Virus record (IMG/VR): IMGVR_UViG_3300030101_004247
Span: 1 to 30,434 of that record
Strand: one strand, 5' to 3'
DNA length: 30,434 nucleotides
Source: a virus
The position numbers were made by a program, and so were the translations under genes. Numbering within the stretch: the stretch's first letter is position 1; each line of letters begins with the position of its first letter. Below the pieces are notes generated by a model. It was given only the letters and a program-made list of their open reading frames with translations, ran no database searches and was not told the DNA's origin. This document shows, piece by piece, positions 3,196-30,434 of this stretch.

Positions 3196-3439
3196 TTTTC
3201 ATCAATTGCTGTTCAACTTCCATTTTATCTTTTTCAAATGCTAACATAGTTAAGCAAGTATGTAATTTAGTTGAGGTTACAGTATCTATTTTATTAACCT
3301 CTCCTTTTGTAAGTCCATAAATGGATTGATACCAACCCCACTTTCTAGCAAATCCTTCAAGCTTTGTGGAATGTCCACTATATCCTGAGTTTTCAAATAG
3401 TTCATTATATGTTTCAGTAATTCGTTCTTTAAATCGCAA
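3182..3439 (-). CDS. Tail assembly chaperone T-like C-terminal frame (probable -1 frameshift product)
   Basis: An 85-codon reading frame that overlaps the end of the upstream 212-aa gene by 154 bases in the -1 frame. It has no ATG at its beginning; the first codons read TTG CGA TTT, directly on the T-run of the slip site. The product reads RFKERITETYNELFENSGYS and has a helical, charged C-terminus ending EVEQQLMKNAKR. The layout is that of the lambda G/GT tail chaperones, in which the T domain is made only as an extension of G. If the ribosome slips back one base on the T9 run, the fusion would be about 247 aa (162 residues from the upstream frame plus 85). Independent initiation at TTG is the alternative. 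Confidence 0.6.
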   Translation of the reverse strand: MRFKERITETYNELFENSGYSGHSTKLEGFARKWGWYQSIYGLTKGEVNKIDTVTSTKLHTCLTMLAFEKDKMEVEQQLMKNAKR

Positions 3440-3924
3440 AAAAAAACTAAAGAACCAAGTACAACATTCAAAGGCATTTCACTTAAATCGTACTTTTCAG
3501 AACTTACATAATCTTCAATTAAATACTTACCTTTTCTTTTGTATGTTACTGGTCTGAATAATACAGCCATTGCTGAATCCATCTGCTGCCAATCTGCAAG
3601 GTAGTTATCTAAATCAATATATTCTCCAAATGTCATTTCATCCAGCTTTGGAATAAAACCAAACTCTTCATCTTCTAATTTAAACAAGGGTTGAAACTCT
3701 GGTGTATTATTAAATAAAGAATCCAAGTGTGTTGTAATCTCTTGAATGTCCTTTAACCTCATCTGCATAATATCTTGTAAGTTAGCATTGCAGAATATTT
3801 CAATCATCTTCTGTTGGTAAAAAGTATTTACTTCTTCTTGCTTTTCAGCTATTTTGATCCAACGTTGATACTGTGCAAGTGTTATCTCACTTAAATCTTC
3901 AGGAACATTTAATTTAATCCTCAT
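3286..3924 (-). CDS. Tail assembly chaperone, G-like
   Basis: A 212-residue, mostly helical, acidic cytosolic protein starting MRIKLNVPEDLSEITLAQYQ. Its place after the terminase genes and ahead of the tail genes, and the long out-of-frame overlap at its 3' end, match tail assembly chaperones that bind the tape measure during tail building. A T9 homopolymer lies in codons 160-163 (Val-Phe-Phe-Cys) and would let a fraction of ribosomes enter the -1 frame. The start ATG overlaps the downstream end of the two-block motif at 3923-3958, so its leader would be very short. There is no enzymatic motif; the assignment rests on layout and general character. Confidence 0.6.
   Translation of the reverse strand: MRIKLNVPEDLSEITLAQYQRWIKIAEKQEEVNTFYQQKMIEIFCNANLQDIMQMRLKDIQEITTHLDSLFNNTPEFQPLFKLEDEEFGFIPKLDEMTFGEYIDLDNYLADWQQMDSAMAVLFRPVTYKRKGKYLIEDYVSSEKYDLSEMPLNVVLGSLVFFCDLKNELLKHIMNYLKTQDIVDIPQSLKDLLESGVGINPFMDLQKERLIK
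3437..3447 (-). promoter_or_regulatory. Candidate -1 frameshift / slippage site (G-T9-G)
   Basis: On the minus strand the sequence reads GTT TTT TTT TGC in the frame of the 212-aa gene. A one-base backward slip gives TTT TTG CGA TTT and enters the 85-codon frame. A run of nine T can act through ribosomal -1 slippage or through polymerase slippage. I did not identify a firm downstream stem-loop by eye. Confidence 0.55.
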
Positions 3925-3958
3925 ACTATTAATGTAAATTTTTTAGCTAAGTGTTATA
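3923..3958 (-). promoter_or_regulatory. Two-block motif, copy 1 (candidate late promoter/operator)
   Basis: Read on the minus strand this is TATAACACTT, then ten bases containing a shared GC, then TTTACATTAATAGTAT, directly upstream of and touching the ATG of the tail chaperone gene. The same two blocks with the same spacing occur at 24522-24557 ahead of the scaffold and capsid genes. TATAAC could act as a -10 box, leaving about a 25-base leader; the second block would then be in the leader. It does not match the usual Bacteroidetes TAnnTTTG element, so a phage-specific factor is possible. Confidence 0.5.
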
Positions 3959-3984
3959 TACAAAATTAAAAAAGTTTGTGCATC

Positions 3985-4047
3985 TTATCTTATCTTATTT
4001 TATCTTATCTTAATGCTTGGGCATTGGTTAAGCATTGCTTCCTCTGT
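3985..4047 (-). repeat. Iteron-like element, non-coding copy B
   Basis: This lies in the 139-base gap between TerL and the tail chaperone. On the minus strand there are about three 11-bp units (GAGGAAGCAAT, GCTTAACCAAT, GCCCAAGCATT), followed by a pentanucleotide tract built from AAGAT/AAAAT units. AATGCTT and AAGCATT also form a 7-bp inverted repeat with an 11-base loop. Over 55 bases it matches 10233-10287 at about 46 positions without gaps, by eye. It has no T-tract, so it is not an obvious terminator. Candidate roles are a replication-initiator binding site, an origin, or a relic of the initiator gene. Confidence 0.6.
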
Positions 4048-4063: not shown

Positions 4064-5269
4064 CTAATAAAGGAAATATTCACCACTGTTTGGATTTTGC
4101 AATTGATAGCTTACTGCATACCGTAATGCATCCAAGCAATGATTCCAATTGTCGCAAGGTGTTTGGCTTTTCTTTTCTAACCAACAATAGTTGTTAAGTT
4201 CTTTAATTAACTCAACACTATCTTCAGTAATTACTAAATCATAATCCTGTAGTAAACTAATACCATAAGTAATACTACCTTGTCCTTTGATTGCTGGTAC
4301 AACTTTGTTGTGTCTGCTTAACTCATTTATTAATCTTGGTTCTGCACTATCACCAACAATTAAATTATCACCAGCATACTTTTTATTCAGCACTGCAATC
4401 TCACTTGTAGTTAGCTTTGTTTGATAGAAGCATTGCTGCACATAAATAATCTTGTTATCCTTATCTATGCTTGTTTTAATTAATGTTGAAGGATCATTAC
4501 TAAACCCATAATCCTGACCAAATACTATTTTACCAACTTGCTTAAATTCTCCAATACTCCAATTGCTGTAAATAACACCTTCTGCTTTATCCAACCAACT
4601 GCCAAGTATTGTATGCTTGTATCTGTTTGGTCTTCTCTCTTTCATTTGCTCTATTTGCTTTATATAGCTTTCAGAAAGGTTTTCTATGTTATCTAAATAA
4701 GTTGTATGTATGTAAGTTGTATCATCTTTGATAATATTGCTTCCAGCTTCCACACCTCTTGCTTCAAAGAACCTTTGGTAAATAAAGTTTTCTTTTGTGG
4801 TTGGGTTAAGTATTAATATTACTCTGTTGTCTTTATCCTTTTGCCTAATGGATAAATCTATTTTATCAAATATACTTTCATCAGTTAACTCTTCAGCTTC
4901 ATCCAACACCCAAGTAGTAACACCCTGCAAAGATTTTAAGTTTGCAGTTTGATCTCCTGAACTTGTTTTGATTCCTCTAAATAGTATCTTACTGCCAGTT
5001 TGCTTGTTTATTATTTCATCTTTTGTAATGTGGAAGTCTTGCTCAATCTTTTGTAGTTCTAGCTTTTCAATAAATTCTGGGATGATTGAAATACTAGCAG
5101 CTCTTAATGTGTATCTAGTAAATAGTATCTTATGTCCTTGCTCATAAGTTAGAAGTGTAAGTAGTGTGTTTATTGCAAAGGATTTGCCTGAACCTCTACC
5201 ACCTGTGCAAATAAAGTATCTAGTATCATTTTCTAATACTAAATATTTATTGCTTAGCTTTAATTCCAC
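4064..5269 (-). CDS. terL: Terminase large subunit
   Basis: The 401-residue ATP-driven packaging motor and nuclease. The N-terminal ATPase has a Walker A motif GGRGSGKS at residues 23-30, a Walker B with catalytic acid in VLDEAEE (Asp123, Glu124) and a coupling motif LNPTT near 154-158. The C-terminal RNase H-like nuclease shows its metal-binding acids in GQDYGFSNDPS (Asp253), IVGDSAEPR (Asp307) and NHCLDALRYAV (Asp380). Length and motifs fit the PBSX/Terminase_3 group. The start overlaps the end of TerS by 23 bases. Downstream comes a non-coding gap with an iteron-like element and a two-block motif before the tail genes. Confidence 0.95.
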   Translation of the reverse strand: MELKLSNKYLVLENDTRYFICTGGRGSGKSFAINTLLTLLTYEQGHKILFTRYTLRAASISIIPEFIEKLELQKIEQDFHITKDEIINKQTGSKILFRGIKTSSGDQTANLKSLQGVTTWVLDEAEELTDESIFDKIDLSIRQKDKDNRVILILNPTTKENFIYQRFFEARGVEAGSNIIKDDTTYIHTTYLDNIENLSESYIKQIEQMKERRPNRYKHTILGSWLDKAEGVIYSNWSIGEFKQVGKIVFGQDYGFSNDPSTLIKTSIDKDNKIIYVQQCFYQTKLTTSEIAVLNKKYAGDNLIVGDSAEPRLINELSRHNKVVPAIKGQGSITYGISLLQDYDLVITEDSVELIKELNNYCWLEKKSQTPCDNWNHCLDALRYAVSYQLQNPNSGEYFLY

Positions 5270-5945: not shown

Positions 5946-6107
5946 TTATCCACTGCAAGATTCACAGTTATTATCATTAATACTGCATTGTCTTGTTGGT
6001 ACTGGTTTCTTTTCTAATTCTTCTAGTAGTTTTTCAAACTCTGTTTTTTTTGTTTTGCTTAAATATCTTAATAGTTTTTTTTCTTTTGCTTGGGTATCTT
6101 TATCCAT
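5946..6107 (-). CDS. Small charged protein with C-terminal Cys cluster (53 aa)
   Basis: A 53-residue protein starting MDKDTQAKEKKLLRYLSKTK, with a Glu/Lys-rich helix and a C-terminal Cys cluster CSINDNNCESCSG. The ATG overlaps the end of the upstream 133-aa gene by eight bases (ATGGATAA), a strong sign that it is translated. The Cys-x6-Cys-x2-Cys tail could bind zinc together with a partner; the upstream neighbour also ends in a CSSC segment. I do not recognise a family. Confidence 0.6.
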   Translation of the reverse strand: MDKDTQAKEKKLLRYLSKTKKTEFEKLLEELEKKPVPTRQCSINDNNCESCSG

Positions 6108-6501
6108 TATAATTATCAAATAAACGTTTGCAATCTGCTATCAATTCTCTTACACAGCTAGAACAACTGCTGATTTCTTTTTTGGTGTGAAGCACCCTAT
6201 TGCTTATTTGTATAAGTTGGACTTGTTCTTGTTCTGTTAAGGTTGTTTTATTTAGTTTAAAAAATTCTTTTAGGAATGTATATTCTTGTTCTTGTAGGCA
6301 TTCAGGTTTGTTGTATGGGAATAGTTTGTTAAGTTTTATTCTTCTTTCTTCACATCCACAGTCTTCACCAGCAATAAACTTTACTACCTTTTCAATGCCT
6401 GTTACTTTTGTAACCTTTGCAATAGTATCACCTAATCCTTTTGACTTGGTAGATTTTTTCTTTCTTACAGTTTTATTTTGTTTTTTAGTTCCTGTTTGCA
6501 T
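6100..6501 (-). CDS. Conserved Bacteroidetes-phage Cys-rich protein
   Basis: A 133-residue protein with a very basic N-terminus (KKQNKTVRKKKSTKSKGLGD), then a conserved-looking KVTGIEKVVKFIAGEDCGCE segment, a LNKLFPYNKPECL motif and a C-terminal CSSC. I recognise this layout from uncharacterised proteins of Bacteroidetes phages near the terminase. The DCGC and CSSC pairs could make a zinc site. It overlaps the sigma-like gene by 37 bases upstream and the 53-aa gene by eight bases downstream. A nucleic-acid-binding role is suggested by the basic tail but remains unproven. Confidence 0.65.
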   Translation of the reverse strand: MQTGTKKQNKTVRKKKSTKSKGLGDTIAKVTKVTGIEKVVKFIAGEDCGCEERRIKLNKLFPYNKPECLQEQEYTFLKEFFKLNKTTLTEQEQVQLIQISNRVLHTKKEISSCSSCVRELIADCKRLFDNYNG

Positions 6502-6968
6502 TTTGCTATTGTTTTATGAACGGTTGCGTGACTTATTTTTGTTGCCTTGCTGAGTTTTCTAATACTGTGAAATTCTTTTCTATATAGGTTAAATAACTTT
6601 CTATCAAACCAATACATAGTGTTAAGTACCTCATCAATCTTTTTTTCAATATCTTCTTGCTGTTCTTGTGAGTCAGCAATTTGTTTATGTGAATTATTTA
6701 AACTCACTTTTTTGTTCTTGTTTTTACTTTTTACTTGTATTATTCTTTTAAGTATAGTTTTAACAATTCCAAAATGTGGTTTATTATTTACAATTAAGTT
6801 TGCAATTTGAAGTTCATTGTTGGTAAGATCATCAAAAACCTTTACATACATATCTTGTACAATATCAATAGGGTTTAGCTCAGTGTTTTGGTACAGCAGC
6901 TTATTAGCCATTGCCTCCCATTTTTTCTGATGTTGTGCCAAGATATTAAGAACCTCATTATGTGACAA
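6465..6968 (-). CDS. Sigma factor-like / HTH transcription regulator
   Basis: A 167-residue protein with the two-part look of small phage sigma-like regulators. An N-terminal helical part contains LNPIDIVQDMYVKVFDDL, like region 2 of ECF-type sigmas (AEDIVQDxF). A C-terminal helix-turn-helix follows, RKLSKATKISHATVHKTIAK, like region 4. The middle is Lys/Gln-rich and probably flexible. It sits at the end of the early region just before packaging and late genes, where a late-gene activator would be expected. It is a natural candidate to recognise the two-block motifs at 3923-3958 and 24522-24557, but that link is inference. Confidence 0.6.
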   Translation of the reverse strand: MSHNEVLNILAQHQKKWEAMANKLLYQNTELNPIDIVQDMYVKVFDDLTNNELQIANLIVNNKPHFGIVKTILKRIIQVKSKNKNKKVSLNNSHKQIADSQEQQEDIEKKIDEVLNTMYWFDRKLFNLYRKEFHSIRKLSKATKISHATVHKTIAKCKQELKNKIKL

Positions 6969-6993
6969 AATATATTTTTGTGGTTATACAAAA

Positions 6994-7341
6994 TTAATAA
7001 CTTTTAGTTACATTATTGTATTCTAATTTTAAAAAACTGATGTTACTTCTTATTGCATCACAAACCCTGTAACCAGCAGAGGTTAGTTTTCTTAATTTAT
7101 ACACTTCAGGAACAGCAATATTTGCTTCATTGGTTGCTCTTGCTACAGATAGCTTTTCATTGTTTACTTTGTTGTATATTATTTCTTCAAAGTCTTGATG
7201 GTATTTACTTTTAATACCCTCAATGTAATACAAGTAGCTTGTAAGGTTTTTTAACTGTTCATTTAACTTAACACCATCATTTATACTTGTTTTGTTGTAC
7301 TGTTCGATAATATCAGCAATTTTATTTAATACTTCATTCAT
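6994..7341 (-). CDS. Hypothetical helical protein
   Basis: A 115-residue protein starting MNEVLNKIADIIEQYNKTSI, predicted mainly alpha-helical, with no membrane segment. The C-terminal part, SVARATNEANIAVPEVYKLR, resembles the helical core of small phage proteins that I cannot name. It overlaps the methyltransferase stop by one base, so the two are probably co-translated. No catalytic residues are apparent. Confidence 0.55.
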   Translation of the reverse strand: MNEVLNKIADIIEQYNKTSINDGVKLNEQLKNLTSYLYYIEGIKSKYHQDFEEIIYNKVNNEKLSVARATNEANIAVPEVYKLRKLTSAGYRVCDAIRSNISFLKLEYNNVTKSY

Positions 7342-9329: not shown

Positions 9330-10181
9330 TTATTTATTTAAAGGGTTAACACCTCCTAAAGTAAAACCCATTCCAAAATTGTAATCAAATCTTAAAGGTT
9401 CATCAAGTGTAGGTTCTCCACCAGTAAGCTTATCTTTTATTTTTTCTATTCTAACTTCAGTCATCATCCACAAATCAGGATGGTTTATGTAACGGTGTAT
9501 GGAAATAAAAGCGTCGCACCTGTTTGCAAAAACTTGCCCCCCCTCAACATCAGATTTTCTGCAAGGTTGTATGTAAGAAGCTAATGTATGGTTTGGAGGG
9601 TAAACCCTTCTAGCTGCTTCAGTCATTGGATGGGTATTTACATAAACAGCTTTACCAGTATTATTACAAAAGTTTCTAATATCGTTACATATTAAATAAT
9701 TTCTTTCATACTGATTAACATTTCTATTATGATTAAGAGCTGTGAATGGATCAACAAAACAAGCATCACATTTTTCCTTTTTAAATATTTTAATTAAATC
9801 AGTATGTGAGTATAGTTTTTTATTATCTACAAATGTGAACCAATCACTTATTTTATCATTGTATTCTTTAATTTGTGTTTTAGTTAAATCAACTAATTTT
9901 TTTTGAGAATACATTTGTATTAAATCTCTTTTAAGTTGACCTTCAGAATTTTCTCCACTCCAGATACACCATTTTAAATTGTGTTTAACTGATAAAACTA
10001 AAAAATACCACATCATAAAGTTTGTTTTACCTACATTATCCATCCCCACGCAAATTGTAAAGCTTCCTTTTTTGTAAACAAGGTTTTTATCTAATCCACA
10101 ATCTATACCTAAACCTCTTTTAATTTTACCATCTTTGAAAGCAAATAAATACTTTAATGCATTGTCTTTAGGTATAATCAT
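9330..10181 (-). CDS. RecA/DnaB-fold replicative helicase-like ATPase
   Basis: A 283-residue single-domain P-loop ATPase. Walker A is GMDNVGKTNF (Gly46, Gly51, Lys52, Thr53), Walker B is CFVDPFTAL with Asp144, and VYVNTHPMTEAARR (residues 179-192) resembles the H3/sensor region of DnaB/Twinkle-type helicases. It lacks a DnaB N-terminal or primase domain, so it is a short helicase-core type common in small phages. It overlaps the DnaD-like initiator gene by four bases, as expected for an initiator-helicase pair. A RepA- or Sak4-like recombination ATPase is the main alternative. Confidence 0.75.
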   Translation of the reverse strand: MIIPKDNALKYLFAFKDGKIKRGLGIDCGLDKNLVYKKGSFTICVGMDNVGKTNFMMWYFLVLSVKHNLKWCIWSGENSEGQLKRDLIQMYSQKKLVDLTKTQIKEYNDKISDWFTFVDNKKLYSHTDLIKIFKKEKCDACFVDPFTALNHNRNVNQYERNYLICNDIRNFCNNTGKAVYVNTHPMTEAARRVYPPNHTLASYIQPCRKSDVEGGQVFANRCDAFISIHRYINHPDLWMMTEVRIEKIKDKLTGGEPTLDEPLRFDYNFGMGFTLGGVNPLNK

Positions 10182-10588
10182 TTTTTAGTACTTAAATATT
10201 CATTTAATCCTTTTGTGCTTAAATAAGGTGTATTATCTTTTCTTTTCTTTTCTTTTCTTAATGCTTGAGCATTGCTTGAGCTTTGCTTACCACCTAATCT
10301 TCCAGCTTCAACCCTTTTTTGGTGTGCTGTTTTTCTTTCTTCAAACTGTTGATCTAACCACTTAATCTTAATTAATTTGTTTTCAACCTTAATTAAATTA
10401 GTTTCTAATAATTTATCGTAATAATCTCCAACAATGTTTTTAAGTTCACTGTTCGAAACCTTGCATCCCTTACTCCAGTAAAAACAACATACTCTCATAA
10501 ATGCACCTTGTACATCAAAGTTTTGAAAAGCAATTGTTCCTGTAAGCCATTGGTTAGGAAAGAATTTAAAATATGGTAGTTCTATCAT
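10178..10588 (-). CDS. DnaD/DUF1376-like replication initiator
   Basis: A 136-residue protein. The N-terminal 80 residues carry a winged-helix-like domain of the DUF1376/DnaD-N type (YFKFFPNQWLTGTIAFQNFD, then GAFMRVCCFYWSKGC). The basic linker AHQKRVEAGRLGGKQ and the low-complexity SSSNAQALRKEKKRKD follow. In phages this type of gene lies beside a DnaB-like helicase and is thought to recruit it to the origin. The linker codons contain 11-bp iteron-like repeats and a purine pentanucleotide tract, which recalls lambda, where the origin lies inside gene O. The C-terminus is short, so it may act only as an origin-binding module. Confidence 0.65.
   Translation of the reverse strand: MIELPYFKFFPNQWLTGTIAFQNFDVQGAFMRVCCFYWSKGCKVSNSELKNIVGDYYDKLLETNLIKVENKLIKIKWLDQQFEERKTAHQKRVEAGRLGGKQSSSNAQALRKEKKRKDNTPYLSTKGLNEYLSTKK
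10230..10291 (-). repeat. Iteron-like element, coding copy A (candidate origin)
   Basis: This lies inside the 3' part of the initiator gene. On the minus strand GCTCAAGCAAT and GCTCAAGCATT are adjacent 11-bp units with a partial unit before them, followed by a tract of four AAAAG/AAGAA-type pentanucleotides. It matches the element after TerL at roughly 46 of 55 positions without gaps. The 11-bp period puts the units on one face of the helix and is not a multiple of three, so amino-acid selection alone does not readily explain it. Confidence 0.6.
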
Positions 10589-17627: not shown

Positions 17628-17882
17628 TTATTCTTCAACAGGTTCTGGTTCACTCCAAGCTTCACTTCTCATTAATTCTAAAGCTTCTGAATGAGTTAAA
17701 GTTTGAGATGGTTTTACTGTACCATCTTTTATAAATGTTGGTTCTGAACTGTATTTAATTACAAATAAAGTGTCATCTAAACTTCTTCTAATTGTTGAAG
17801 CTGAACTTTCACCTACTTGGCTGAAGTCAATGTTTTTTAAATCTGTTGCTATGTTGCATATTGCATAAGTTTTATTATTCAT
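17628..17882 (-). CDS. Hypothetical protein (84 aa)
   Basis: An 84-residue acidic protein starting MNNKTYAICNIATDLKNIDF, ending in a Glu/Pro-rich SEAWSEPEPVEE. The segment RRSLDDTLFVIKYSSEPTFI and the THSEALELM helix form a compact small domain. It lies between the LamG adhesin and the lysis genes. I recall similar small proteins next to tail fibre genes in pelagic phages. It could be a fibre chaperone, which is unproven. Confidence 0.55.
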   Translation of the reverse strand: MNNKTYAICNIATDLKNIDFSQVGESSASTIRRSLDDTLFVIKYSSEPTFIKDGTVKPSQTLTHSEALELMRSEAWSEPEPVEE

Positions 17883-22940: not shown

Positions 22941-23873
22941 TTAAGCGTATATAACTACGTCTGAAGCAATTCCAATCTGAACACCAGCAGTAAATCTCAT
23001 AACTACTCGTACATTTTGAGAACCATCTAAATCTCCCATATCAAGAAGCTTAACTTCATTATGGTCGGAAAGTAATCCTGTACCGAAGTATAGGTTGCTT
23101 TTCTGTGCAGCCATCATTGAATCATCTGGCAATCCAGCTCCAATTACAACTTTAACACCATCATAAGAAAGTGCTCCATTGTTCCACCATTGTGTTCCTT
23201 GTGCGTTAACACCAGCAGCTCCTAAGCCATTAGCACCAAATCCACCTAAAGCTCTAACGTATAATTTAGCAGCTTTTCTTGAAACATAGATATACAAATC
23301 TTCTTTTCCATAAACTCCTGAAGGAATTGCATCAACCACTTTACCCATTTCATCAATGATGTTAGAAGCAGTTAAAGGTGAACCAGATACTGCAACAGTT
23401 CCAGCACCACCAGCAGTAGCTAAATAGTAAAAGCCATCAAACTCACCAGCGTTTCCTGTTTGTCCACTCCAGATGTTTTGTTCTGTTTTCTCAGCAACCA
23501 ATCCAGCAACGTGTGCTAGGATGAAATCAGAAAATGCTGGGGGTAAGTTATCATAAGCTGAATAGCCCATTTGAACTGCTTCCCAATCGCTTCTAAAATC
23601 TTTTTTACAAAGATTCAAGTTAATCTGAAATTCTTCAGGTTGTAAAATTCTTTCTGTTAATGTTAAAGTTCCAGTTGGTGTGAAATCACAAGTTGCATCT
23701 TTGATAACATTTGCATCAGTTGCTACTTTCTTTAAAACCTCTTTGAACTTAACATTAGGTTTTACGGTAATTAAACCGTTTTCAATTGTTGAACCACTCA
23801 ATAGAGCCGCAGAAATATACTTTCCAGCAAATTCACCAGCGTAAGTTGAAGTGATTGAAGTTGTTGTTGCCAT
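22941..23873 (-). CDS. Major capsid protein
   Basis: A 310-residue protein, starting MATTTSITSTYAGEFAGKYI, with the features of HK97-fold capsid subunits: an N-terminal helical arm, an E-loop-like region (PTGTLTLTERILQPEEFQIN), a long spine helix region (AFSDFILAHVAGLVAEKTEQ) and a beta-rich A-domain ending in VRVVMRFTAGVQIGIASDVV. It follows the scaffold-like gene by 15 bases and is followed by a strong terminator. Assignment rests on length, neighbours and pattern. Confidence 0.8.
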   Translation of the reverse strand: MATTTSITSTYAGEFAGKYISAALLSGSTIENGLITVKPNVKFKEVLKKVATDANVIKDATCDFTPTGTLTLTERILQPEEFQINLNLCKKDFRSDWEAVQMGYSAYDNLPPAFSDFILAHVAGLVAEKTEQNIWSGQTGNAGEFDGFYYLATAGGAGTVAVSGSPLTASNIIDEMGKVVDAIPSGVYGKEDLYIYVSRKAAKLYVRALGGFGANGLGAAGVNAQGTQWWNNGALSYDGVKVVIGAGLPDDSMMAAQKSNLYFGTGLLSDHNEVKLLDMGDLDGSQNVRVVMRFTAGVQIGIASDVVIYA

Positions 23874-23888: not shown

Positions 23889-24503
23889 TTAATTACTAGC
23901 TATTTTACTAAAAACTCTATCCATTGTAGTTTCAGTACGTTTTTGCCCAAATAAAAACTTTCCTTTTTTGTTTTGCTCAGTTTCAGGATTGTGCTTTATT
24001 GGTTCAACTGCTTCCTCTTTGGTTGCAGATAATTCAGTTTCTTGAAGTTCTTCTTTAACTTCTTCAGTTGCAGTTTCTTCAGACATTTCTTCTTTATCTT
24101 TGCCCATTTTATCAATCATTGCTTTGATTTCATCAACTGCTTTTGTAAATTCTTCTTTAGTTACATATCTCATTTCCTCTTTCTCCTCTTCCTTTTCTAA
24201 TTCAGCAGCTTCAACTTCTTCTTTTTCTTCTTCTTCTTTCTCTGCTTCAACCTCTTTAATTTCTGAGATTAACCCTTCTTCTTTAACTACAAGAACCATA
24301 TCGTTCTCTAGTTTGTATTCACCAACTGGAAGTGCAATTTGTTCTTCTTCTGATTTTATAAAGATTGCTTCACCAGCTTTAAATTCTTCAGCTACCAATA
24401 CAGTACCGTTTTCAAGTTTCATTTCAGCAAGATTTACTGTTTCTTCAGCAAGTTCGACTCCGACTATGCCTTTAATTTTGTTTAGAATTTCTGTTGCTTT
24501 CAT
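23889..24503 (-). CDS. Scaffold-like acidic protein
   Basis: A 204-residue, very acidic protein. The N-terminal 80 residues are a beta-rich domain (KLENGTVLVAEEFKAGEAIF). A Glu-rich helical stretch of about 60 residues follows, then MRYVTKEEFTKAVDEIKAMI, probably a coiled coil, and a basic C-terminus (FLFGQKRTETTMDRVFSK). Acidic helical proteins directly before the capsid gene usually act as scaffolds. The preceding two-block motif suggests strong late expression. Confidence 0.6.
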   Translation of the reverse strand: MKATEILNKIKGIVGVELAEETVNLAEMKLENGTVLVAEEFKAGEAIFIKSEEEQIALPVGEYKLENDMVLVVKEEGLISEIKEVEAEKEEEEKEEVEAAELEKEEEKEEMRYVTKEEFTKAVDEIKAMIDKMGKDKEEMSEETATEEVKEELQETELSATKEEAVEPIKHNPETEQNKKGKFLFGQKRTETTMDRVFSKIASN

Positions 24504-24521: not shown

Positions 24522-24557
24522 ATACTATTAATGTAAAAAAAAGTGCAAAGTGTTATA
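24522..24557 (-). promoter_or_regulatory. Two-block motif, copy 2 (candidate late promoter/operator)
   Basis: On the minus strand TATAACACTT is followed after ten bases by TTTACATTAATAGTAT, the same blocks and spacing as at 3923-3958. It lies in the 67-base gap between the small Cys-rich gene and the scaffold-like gene, 18 bases before the ATG. An adjacent inverted repeat (AGTGTT, AACACT) and an eight-T tract make this site look partly like a terminator as well. Confidence 0.5.
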
Positions 24558-28346: not shown

Positions 28347-30434
28347 TTAGCTTGGTTCATTTAATAATTCAAGTGTACTTCTTCCAGTTTGTAAATCAGT
28401 AGTTATTTTGTTAATTGTAAATGCTCTGCCTGTTACAAATATTTTATCTGCTAGACTGTATGTCAATAAAAACTTTAAAGGCAGTACAGCTTTGTATTTG
28501 AATATTCTAGTTTTAGTATTGAATACCCTTTGAATATAACTTTGATAAAACTTTTGGAATAAACTGTTGTTGCTTCCACCATAATCTGTAAGTGTGTAGC
28601 TGTTGATCTCACTACCAAAATTTAAATTAAATGCTGGTGCTGTTGAGGTTGTTCCTAACTCATTTGCATTATGTGGCATCCAGTAATTGTTTATAGTTGT
28701 ATTTGTGATTCCTGAAATTGAGTCAACTGGTCTTGTGCTATCTACATAGTTTATTGGTGTGCTAATGCTTGTGTTGTAAATACCATAAAAAAGTAAAGGT
28801 GCTGTTTTTACTGAATTATCATCTTCATCAACTGCTAAACCATACTGAACATCTGTATTTACTTTTGTAGTTCCATCAGCTAACCTTTCAAAAAGCATAT
28901 GCTCAAAAGGTGGTAATACTTCATACTTTCTGTTTTGACTAGCATCAGCAATAAAATTCAAGCTTCCATATTCTGTGTTGTTTAAATTTAAAAATGCTTG
29001 TGCAAGTTTTGTTTTAGGTTCTGGATATTCAAACTTTATATTGCTAAATGGAAGTGCTTCACTTACTGTATGTTCATCTTTTACAATAAATTTACTTATA
29101 TCGTGTGTTGTTGTTGAATCACCATAAAAATCATCTAATGTTTTTACTACAACTCTGTCGCTACTATCTAAAAATGCTGTTAAATTAAATACCTTAAAAA
29201 TACCTTTTAGAAAATCTATAACCTTGATGTCAGGAACTTGTTCAGTTGGTTTTATATCATCAATTACAACAGATATATTTGTTGCATTTGAATTAAATGT
29301 ACAGCTTTCAAAAGTAACGCCTGGATTTAAAAAATGTTGACCAACAGTCACATTAGCTCCAAATTCAAAACTACCAGCAGAGGAAATTATTGCTGTGATT
29401 TTTCTAGTTTGACCAGTTACCATTGGACTTTCAGGCAAATCAAATGTACCACCAAACAAGGATAAATTACCTGTTGTAGTTATACTTGCAATTTCTGAGT
29501 TATCAATTAAATCTACTATTCTTACACTGTAAGGAGTTGAACCAAAACCTGTATTAGGATTTATTGCTACACCATAAAAAAAACGATTAAATAACTGCAC
29601 TTGCCCTGTTGGTGGAAAAATATATTCTTCTTTTGTTACTGTATAAACACCATTAGAAAATTCTGTTTTTGGGTTTTGATAAACATTGCACAAAGTTTGT
29701 ACAGGGTCATATCTTAAACTGTTTCCTGAAGTTACACAAGTAAAAGCTTGACCCTCTATACTTACACTGTTTTCTGTTTGCATTTTTCCTTTATCTCTAT
29801 GCAACCATAAGTACAAATTGCTAAACTCTGTACTATCAAAAAACTCACCTGTTTTAAATGTTAATCCATATTGCTCTTCAATTGCCTTTATAACTAAACT
29901 AGCTTTTATTGCTGGTTTTAAATCTTCAGGAAATACTCCCCTTGTTTTATCATTTGCACTATCATCAGATAAATTACCAACATCTGTAAGGTTGCCAGTA
30001 TCATCATAGATGTATCTTTGAGTATGTGTAATTAAAGGATAAATAATTGCACTATTATAGGTAACACTATCAACTGTAATATTATGCCCTGTTTGCAATC
30101 CTGTAAGAACATTTGCTGTAAGTGCTGGTAGTTTGAAGTTATCCATCCAAACTAAATTGTTTAGTTTATCCTCTCCAAATAAATTATTTAAACTAACTGT
30201 TTTACCAAAGAAAGTAACTTTGTAAGTATGTGGTCTGTTATCTTTCATTTTGACCTCTTGCAATCTTATTTTACCCTCTCTGAATGGTTGATAGTTTAAT
30301 TCAATTTTTGCATCACTTTGTATATTAGCATCAAATCCCTTGACATCTGGATTGTACCAATGTTTGAACAGCTTGTTGTTCTTTTGACTTGCTGGAATGT
30401 TGAACGTTCTGCTGAAATCAGTAAACACTTTGTC
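28347..30434 (-). CDS. Large tail protein (right-end copy, 5' end outside window)
   Basis: At least 695 codons of a large tail protein. The window ends about 129 bases short of the start codon predicted from the left-end copy, so the full product would be about 738 aa. The protein is beta-rich, with aromatic repeats in its middle and a C-terminus ending AFTINKITTDLQTGRSTLELL, typical of tail-tip components. I see no peptidase or lysozyme motif. It is followed directly by the 50-aa gene and the tape measure. Confidence 0.75.
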   Translation of the reverse strand, partial: DKVFTDFSRTFNIPASQKNNKLFKHWYNPDVKGFDANIQSDAKIELNYQPFREGKIRLQEVKMKDNRPHTYKVTFFGKTVSLNNLFGEDKLNNLVWMDNFKLPALTANVLTGLQTGHNITVDSVTYNSAIIYPLITHTQRYIYDDTGNLTDVGNLSDDSANDKTRGVFPEDLKPAIKASLVIKAIEEQYGLTFKTGEFFDSTEFSNLYLWLHRDKGKMQTENSVSIEGQAFTCVTSGNSLRYDPVQTLCNVYQNPKTEFSNGVYTVTKEEYIFPPTGQVQLFNRFFYGVAINPNTGFGSTPYSVRIVDLIDNSEIASITTTGNLSLFGGTFDLPESPMVTGQTRKITAIISSAGSFEFGANVTVGQHFLNPGVTFESCTFNSNATNISVVIDDIKPTEQVPDIKVIDFLKGIFKVFNLTAFLDSSDRVVVKTLDDFYGDSTTTHDISKFIVKDEHTVSEALPFSNIKFEYPEPKTKLAQAFLNLNNTEYGSLNFIADASQNRKYEVLPPFEHMLFERLADGTTKVNTDVQYGLAVDEDDNSVKTAPLLFYGIYNTSISTPINYVDSTRPVDSISGITNTTINNYWMPHNANELGTTSTAPAFNLNFGSEINSYTLTDYGGSNNSLFQKFYQSYIQRVFNTKTRIFKYKAVLPLKFLLTYSLADKIFVTGRAFTINKITTDLQTGRSTLELLNEPS
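29662..30434. repeat. Terminal near-direct repeat, right arm
   Basis: This is the partner of bases 1-773 at a constant offset of 29661, with no indels and about 40 substitutions by eye. It lies within the large tail gene. If the ends join, the unit length is about 29661 bases. Confidence 0.85.

Follow-up and report, generated by a model that had tools for sequence, protein, structure and literature searches.

Candidate late promoters with lineage-specific spelling, and a phage-encoded ECF-like sigma factor as their putative reader, in Bacteroidota phages

The window, which is the whole 30,434-base stretch of viral DNA analyzed here, has all of its long genes on the minus strand. A two-block motif, TATAACACTT-N10-TTTACATTAATAGTAT, occurs in it as two exact copies, both also on the minus strand, at 3923-3958 (site 1, TATAACACTTAGCTAAAAAATTTACATTAATAGTAT) and 24522-24557 (site 2, TATAACACTTTGCACTTTTTTTTACATTAATAGTAT), against an expected mean of 0.00 copies in 100 dinucleotide shuffles. 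The spacers, AGCTAAAAAA and TGCACTTTTT, have only GC in common, which confirms what a preliminary description of this DNA had reported, namely exact blocks of 16 and 10 bases at equal spacing with spacers that otherwise differ. No third site was found in a position-weight scan of the window (the two sites score 45.4 and 44.5, and the next match, on the opposite strand, 11.9). Site 1 is flanked by the terminase large subunit gene (terL, 4064-5269) and the first tail gene, a tail chaperone candidate (3286-3924) whose start codon is conserved, and the motif ends on the AT of this gene's ATG at 3924. Site 2 lies ahead of a scaffold candidate (23889-24503), which is followed by a capsid candidate (22941-23873), and here the ATG at 24503 is 19 bases past the motif end. 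Both sites have an upstream, -35-type block, TATAACA, with the core AAC (3952-3958 and 24551-24557), and a downstream, -10-type core, CATTA (3930-3934 and 24529-24533), in the arrangement AAC-N18-CATTA; these elements are delimited by the exact repeat and by their conservation in relatives.

The record itself shows other features. Its ends (1-773 and 29662-30434) are a repeat of ~770 bases at ~96% identity (a 300-base family at 96%), which indicates a circular or permuted genome, and the record probably overlaps itself as two strain variants. Between terL and site 1, the 56 bases at 3985-4040 are 84% identical to 10233-10288, inside an ORF at 10178-10588, as if they were a copied fragment of it. 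A search of phage records for DNA near to the window gave no match, and a portal search in genome contigs gave no host assignment.

A small gene at 6465-6968 (minus strand, 167 amino acids) encodes the sigma-like protein that we propose as the reader of both sites. The preliminary description had noted such a protein, and weak profile matches and structure prediction point the same way. It weakly matches TIGR02937 over residues 34-164 (E=7.2e-6; 25.7 bits, under the curated cut-off of 42.9) and the sigma factor family PHROG 1740 (E=2.4e-5). The AlphaFold model (pLDDT 79) has helices at 3-80 and 100-165, joined by a low-confidence or disordered linker at ~84-103, and Foldseek ranks 1-12 are all ECF sigma chains or complexes (probability 0.99-1.00, E 1.5e-3 to 1.5e-2), with low whole-chain TM-scores of 0.3-0.4. 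The sub-cut-off matches and low TM-scores may be attributed to domain arrangement or divergence; a PDB sequence search returned chance matches only. The model and the Foldseek matches have sigma2 and sigma4 connected by the linker, and neither sigma1.1 nor sigma3, so that the product is predicted to be a small, divergent, two-domain ECF-like sigma. Profile searches identified homologues in the lineages 46-99% identical, in the lineages at 54% and 60% TerL identity, in Nonlabens phage P12024S, and in contigs L103-L106. For P12024S the homologue is gp33, which is matched at E=1.5e-5 by a profile built without it and is annotated in its record as containing Sigma-70 region 2; pairwise BLASTP between the window and P12024S sigmas was not significant, so this link runs through the profile only. 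A tblastn search of phage records with the window sigma gave no match. In the window and its syntenic relatives the gene precedes terL by a few genes, and across the group it is usually just ahead of the terminase genes. Its start (6966-6968) is TTG in the window and GTG in the lineage at 80%, a possible brake on its translation. An overlapping gene at 6100-6501 encodes a Cys-containing protein, adjacent to the sigma in far lineages where both are seen; there it retains 46-56% identity, compared with 22-26% for the sigma, and it is a possible candidate for a partner or anti-sigma.

The housekeeping promoter of Bacteroidota, that of sigmaABfr, is characterized by TTTG or TAnnTTTG (PMC6847099). 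The strict pattern TTG-N17-23-TAnnTTTG returned mostly in-gene noise in the window; position-wise conservation alone proved informative. Upstream of the sigma-like gene, TAATTTTG is found at 6989-6996 (minus strand), and TAnnTTTG is present at the orthologous position in all 13 of 13 genomes, at -28 in the window type or -15 in the 80% lineage. It is absent before the scaffold gene (0/13) and present before the tail gene in 8 of 14 genomes. In the window, TAATTTTG at 3961-3968 (minus strand) is a perfect match directly upstream of site 1, and in window-type genomes TAAATTTG or TAATTTTG directly precedes TATAACA there. The preliminary description was right that the motif itself has no host-type TAnnTTTG, but it missed this element. 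Because the site 1 element is missing from most of the 80% lineage and from site 2, we place it outside the core; it may be a tandem host promoter giving some early tail transcription. In several relatives, intrinsic terminators (a hairpin and a T run, such as CCTCCC...GGGAGG-T9 and GAGCTAC...GTAGC-T9) end just upstream of site 1, and the tail module would thus need a start of its own.

TerL relatives of the window fall at ~94-100%, 78-82%, 59-60%, 53-55%, and 46% identity, and the syntenic set consists of the window and 13 other records. The preliminary description had placed the copies ahead of the tail chaperone and the scaffold and capsid genes, and had suggested looking for the spaced motif upstream of late genes in related phages; this placement is borne out, as every one of the 13-14 syntenic genomes keeps both sites at these two genes. 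Among close relatives, the upstream sequence is swapped to within ~20 bases of the motif at site 1 and almost up to the motif at site 2, and at each site the motif itself stays. Within a genome, both copies have the spelling of that lineage, and the spacers differ. One such spelling is CACTT/TTACATTA; both copies in G004 have AAAA, with TATAACAAAA and TTGCATTA, those in G010 have CATAACACTT and CT(A/G)CATTA, and those of the G005 type have A10-CATTTATATA. In the ~80% lineage, site 1 is TATAACAAAGTC-A10-CATTTATATAATATGG and site 2 is TATAACAAGTTC-A10-CATTTATATAGTATGA. We compared true with permuted site pairs in the 70-base upstream regions of ten lineages; permuted pairs scored 87.7 +/- 9.1, and true pairs reached 133.0 (p=2.5e-5). 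With far lineages alone, the true pairing was the best of 5040 (exact p=1/5040), and eight shifted control regions gave no pairing signal (p 0.09-0.83). Blocks that change together, with spacers that stay different, are the trace expected from a shared trans-acting reader. One contig (L011) has a third copy of the motif at 17763-17798. It immediately precedes the ATG of an additional gene located before the scaffold gene, and we read this as a putative inserted gene with its own late promoter.

The same architecture is found, in other spellings, in lineages with ~53-62% TerL identity. Claims here use lineage-specific patterns, because a loose pattern, AAC-N15-19-[CT][AGT]TT[AT], also matches within coding sequence before portal and protease genes. 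In the 54% lineage, terS and the tail gene are preceded by AAC-N17/18-GTTATC(A/T)TAATAT (0 expected), L103 has CGTTATAT(A/T)GNT before the tail and protease genes (2 found versus 0.015 expected), and L105 and L106 have TCTATTATATA before terS, tail, and head genes. The 60% lineage, with AAC-N16-GTTA before terS and the tail gene, is a weaker case, its pair being second of ten in the permutation test, and in L104 no second site was found. The phage contigs L105 and L106 are filed under an archaeal MAG and a Pseudooceanicola MAG, probably through binning errors.

The isolated Nonlabens (Persicivirga) phages P12024S and P12024L (genus Inhavirus) resemble the window in having a sigma-like gene, gp33, ahead of the terminase genes, and late-type sites. 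They differ in having more of these sites (seven) and in having CGTTA as the counterpart of CATTA, and their TerL and portal are 53% and 35% identical to those of the window. In both, AAAAC-N17-CGTTA occurs six times (0.11 expected) on the coding strand, each time directly before an annotated start, and the seventh site has an N16 spacer. When 2.9 million viral contigs were scanned for AAAAC-N17-CGTTAATATANNATG, seven Inhavirus-type stretches matched, one of which is P12024L; the relaxed sites in these stretches all abut an ORF start (19/19), and the sigma gene is present in four stretches other than P12024L. With the A of ATG as +1, five of the seven P12024S sites have the A of AAC at -32, and six have the G of CGTTA at -11. 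The sigmaH promoter of M. tuberculosis has GGAAYA at -34 to -29 and G-11T-10T-9 (PMC6411747), and the P12024S sites match its frame (A-32A-31C-30 / G-11T-10T-9) given a transcription start at the ATG. Since the two frames coincide if the start is the ATG, leaderless late mRNAs are predicted for P12024S. In the window, CATTA is 2 bases closer to the ATG than CGTTA is in P12024S. Applied strictly, the sigmaH frame would there place the first transcribed base just within the ATG, which leaves an uncertainty of ~2 bases in the start position. Near 2990, 5380, and 23930 of P12024S (L101), small genes on the opposite strand have TAnnTTTG elements that overlap or adjoin the late upstream block, and these would be face-to-face pairs of early and late promoters. 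We found no promoter description for P12024S or P12024L in the literature searched.

Taken together, we consider it very likely that the two sites in the window are phage late promoters, in a cascade leading from the host sigma to the phage ECF-like sigma and on to the late genes. The preliminary description had favored a phage-specific late promoter, and this reading is supported by placement, by the joint re-spelling of the two copies, by the terminators, by the sigma2/sigma4 layout, and by the agreement of P12024S with the sigmaH frame. The distribution is that of a late promoter: the window has exactly two copies, both preceding late structural modules, relatives have them at these two genes, and the six strict sites of P12024S all precede genes on the coding strand. 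The host-type element before the sigma gene in 13/13 genomes, and before the scaffold gene in none, points to an order of host sigmaA, phage sigma, and late promoters. Host RNA polymerase would transcribe the sigma-like gene from its TAnnTTTG promoter, and the ECF-like sigma would then steer the core RNA polymerase of the host to both sites, with sigma4 reading the upstream block around AAC and sigma2 the downstream CATTA. The tail module would be switched on from 3924, and the scaffold, capsid, portal, and lysis module from 24503. At site 1 and in most relatives the ATG is approximately at the expected start, so late mRNAs are probably leaderless or nearly so, and a leader of ~20 nt is predicted at site 2 of the window. 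Most mRNAs of F. johnsoniae carry leaders (PMC6847099). Several observations count against the promoter reading. The spacing from AAC to the downstream block differs by lineage (N16, N17, N18), although ECF sigmas are said to require a rigid spacer, the upstream block of L103 is GATAAAA rather than AAC, and with a host-type -7 element upstream of site 1, the motif could lie in a leader there. The sub-cut-off sigma matches with low TM-scores, the shorter CATTA-to-ATG distance of the window, the weak 60% lineage, and the single site of L104 also count against it.

The preliminary description had named an operator and an RNA leader element as alternatives, and neither fits as well. Host sigmaA polymerase could transcribe the late modules itself, with the blocks bound by a repressor or by a phage activator, possibly the sigma-like protein. 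The joint re-spelling would suit any trans-acting protein, and TAATTTTG is directly upstream of site 1 in the window lineage, but none of the 13 genomes has a host-type -7 element at site 2, and none was found on the coding strand before the late genes of P12024S. In addition, the blocks do not form a dyad (the ATTAAT palindrome of the window is lost in relatives), and the spacing of the blocks and how far they lie from the start are as expected for a sigma footprint. Without a conserved dyad, we rejected the operator as the main reading and regard it as unlikely.

The motif might instead be transcribed and act in the 5' UTR, either as a leader of the RNA or in translation initiation, where it could provide a ribosome-binding context specific to the phage. 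The ATG abuts it at site 1 and in most relatives, and mRNAs of Bacteroidota have no Shine-Dalgarno sites and favor A at -3 and -6 (PMC6847099). On the other hand, the ATG is ~20 bases further off at site 2 of window-type genomes, motif RNAs fold no better than shuffles (z 0.5, 0.2), an Rfam search of the motif gave no match, a block 30 bases upstream holds its spacing to the downstream block, and the terminators directly upstream of site 1 in relatives call for a new start. With no fold, no Rfam match, and a variable ATG distance, the leader was rejected and appears very unlikely. Slimmer still is the chance that the copies have no regulatory role and are kept alike by recombination between modules. 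A third copy precedes an inserted gene in G002, and a small ORF is found behind site 1 in G007-type genomes, as recombination might leave them, but the blocks agree within each genome where the spacers differ, the architecture recurs in other spellings at ~53-62% TerL identity, and the sites occur solely at module starts on the coding strand.

Returning to the late promoters, the same putative arrangement recurs, with each lineage's own spelling, in a broad range of phages of Bacteroidota from marine and freshwater settings. A broader proposal, to which we give evenly balanced credence, is that a group of Bacteroidota siphophages expresses its late genes from ECF-like sigma promoters that start at the start codon, giving leaderless capsid and tail mRNAs in hosts with mostly leadered mRNAs and no Shine-Dalgarno sites, under lineage-specific sigma/promoter codes that have changed jointly and repeatedly. 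Little has been described of how phages of Bacteroidota control late transcription, and the cascade offers a testable scheme, with P12024S as a test case. The at least six spellings of naturally diversified sigma/promoter pairs could allow DNA recognition rules to be read, and such pairs are candidate orthogonal tools for Bacteroidota. The predicted leaderless late mRNAs also bear on translation start by Bacteroidota ribosomes. In the mostly freely accessible literature searched, neither these promoters nor a late sigma of flavobacterial phages was found described, and the phage group and its motif code appear undescribed there.

Phage proteins that redirect host polymerase to phage-specific late promoters include T4 gp55, SPO1 gp28/gp34, and PBSX Xpf, and the Xpf gene is near the terminase genes. 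The sigma gene of the window is likewise near terminase genes, but its match to Xpf (NF005385, E=0.003, 17.3 bits versus a cut-off of 136) is too weak to file it with Xpf, and motif and hosts differ from those of all these systems. The sigmaABfr promoter type occurs in the same genome, before the sigma gene and upstream of site 1, whereas the late motif has no TAnnTTTG. ECF (group 4) sigmas such as M. tuberculosis sigmaH and E. coli sigmaE share sigma2 and sigma4 joined by a flexible linker, and sigmaH promoters, like the sites of P12024S, have AAC in the -35 block and GTT in the -10 block at the same positions relative to the start (PMC6411747). Unlike these, the protein at 6465-6968 is phage-encoded, beside the terminase genes, and very divergent. 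ECF promoters have AAC, then GTT or similar, with a spacer of 16-17. P12024S agrees with this (AAC-N17-CGTTA), and the window, with AAC-N18-CATTA, is alike in layout and differs in the -10 core, which is CATTA in the window lineage and GTTATC, CATTT, or CTATTATATA in others; the spacing varies by lineage (N15-N18), and a start codon coincides with the predicted start of transcription. Late promoters driven by a sigma that the phage encodes are thus of a known kind, and what appears new is the ECF-like layout, the way paired sites have been re-spelled together again and again across Bacteroidota phages, and the prediction of leaderless late mRNAs.
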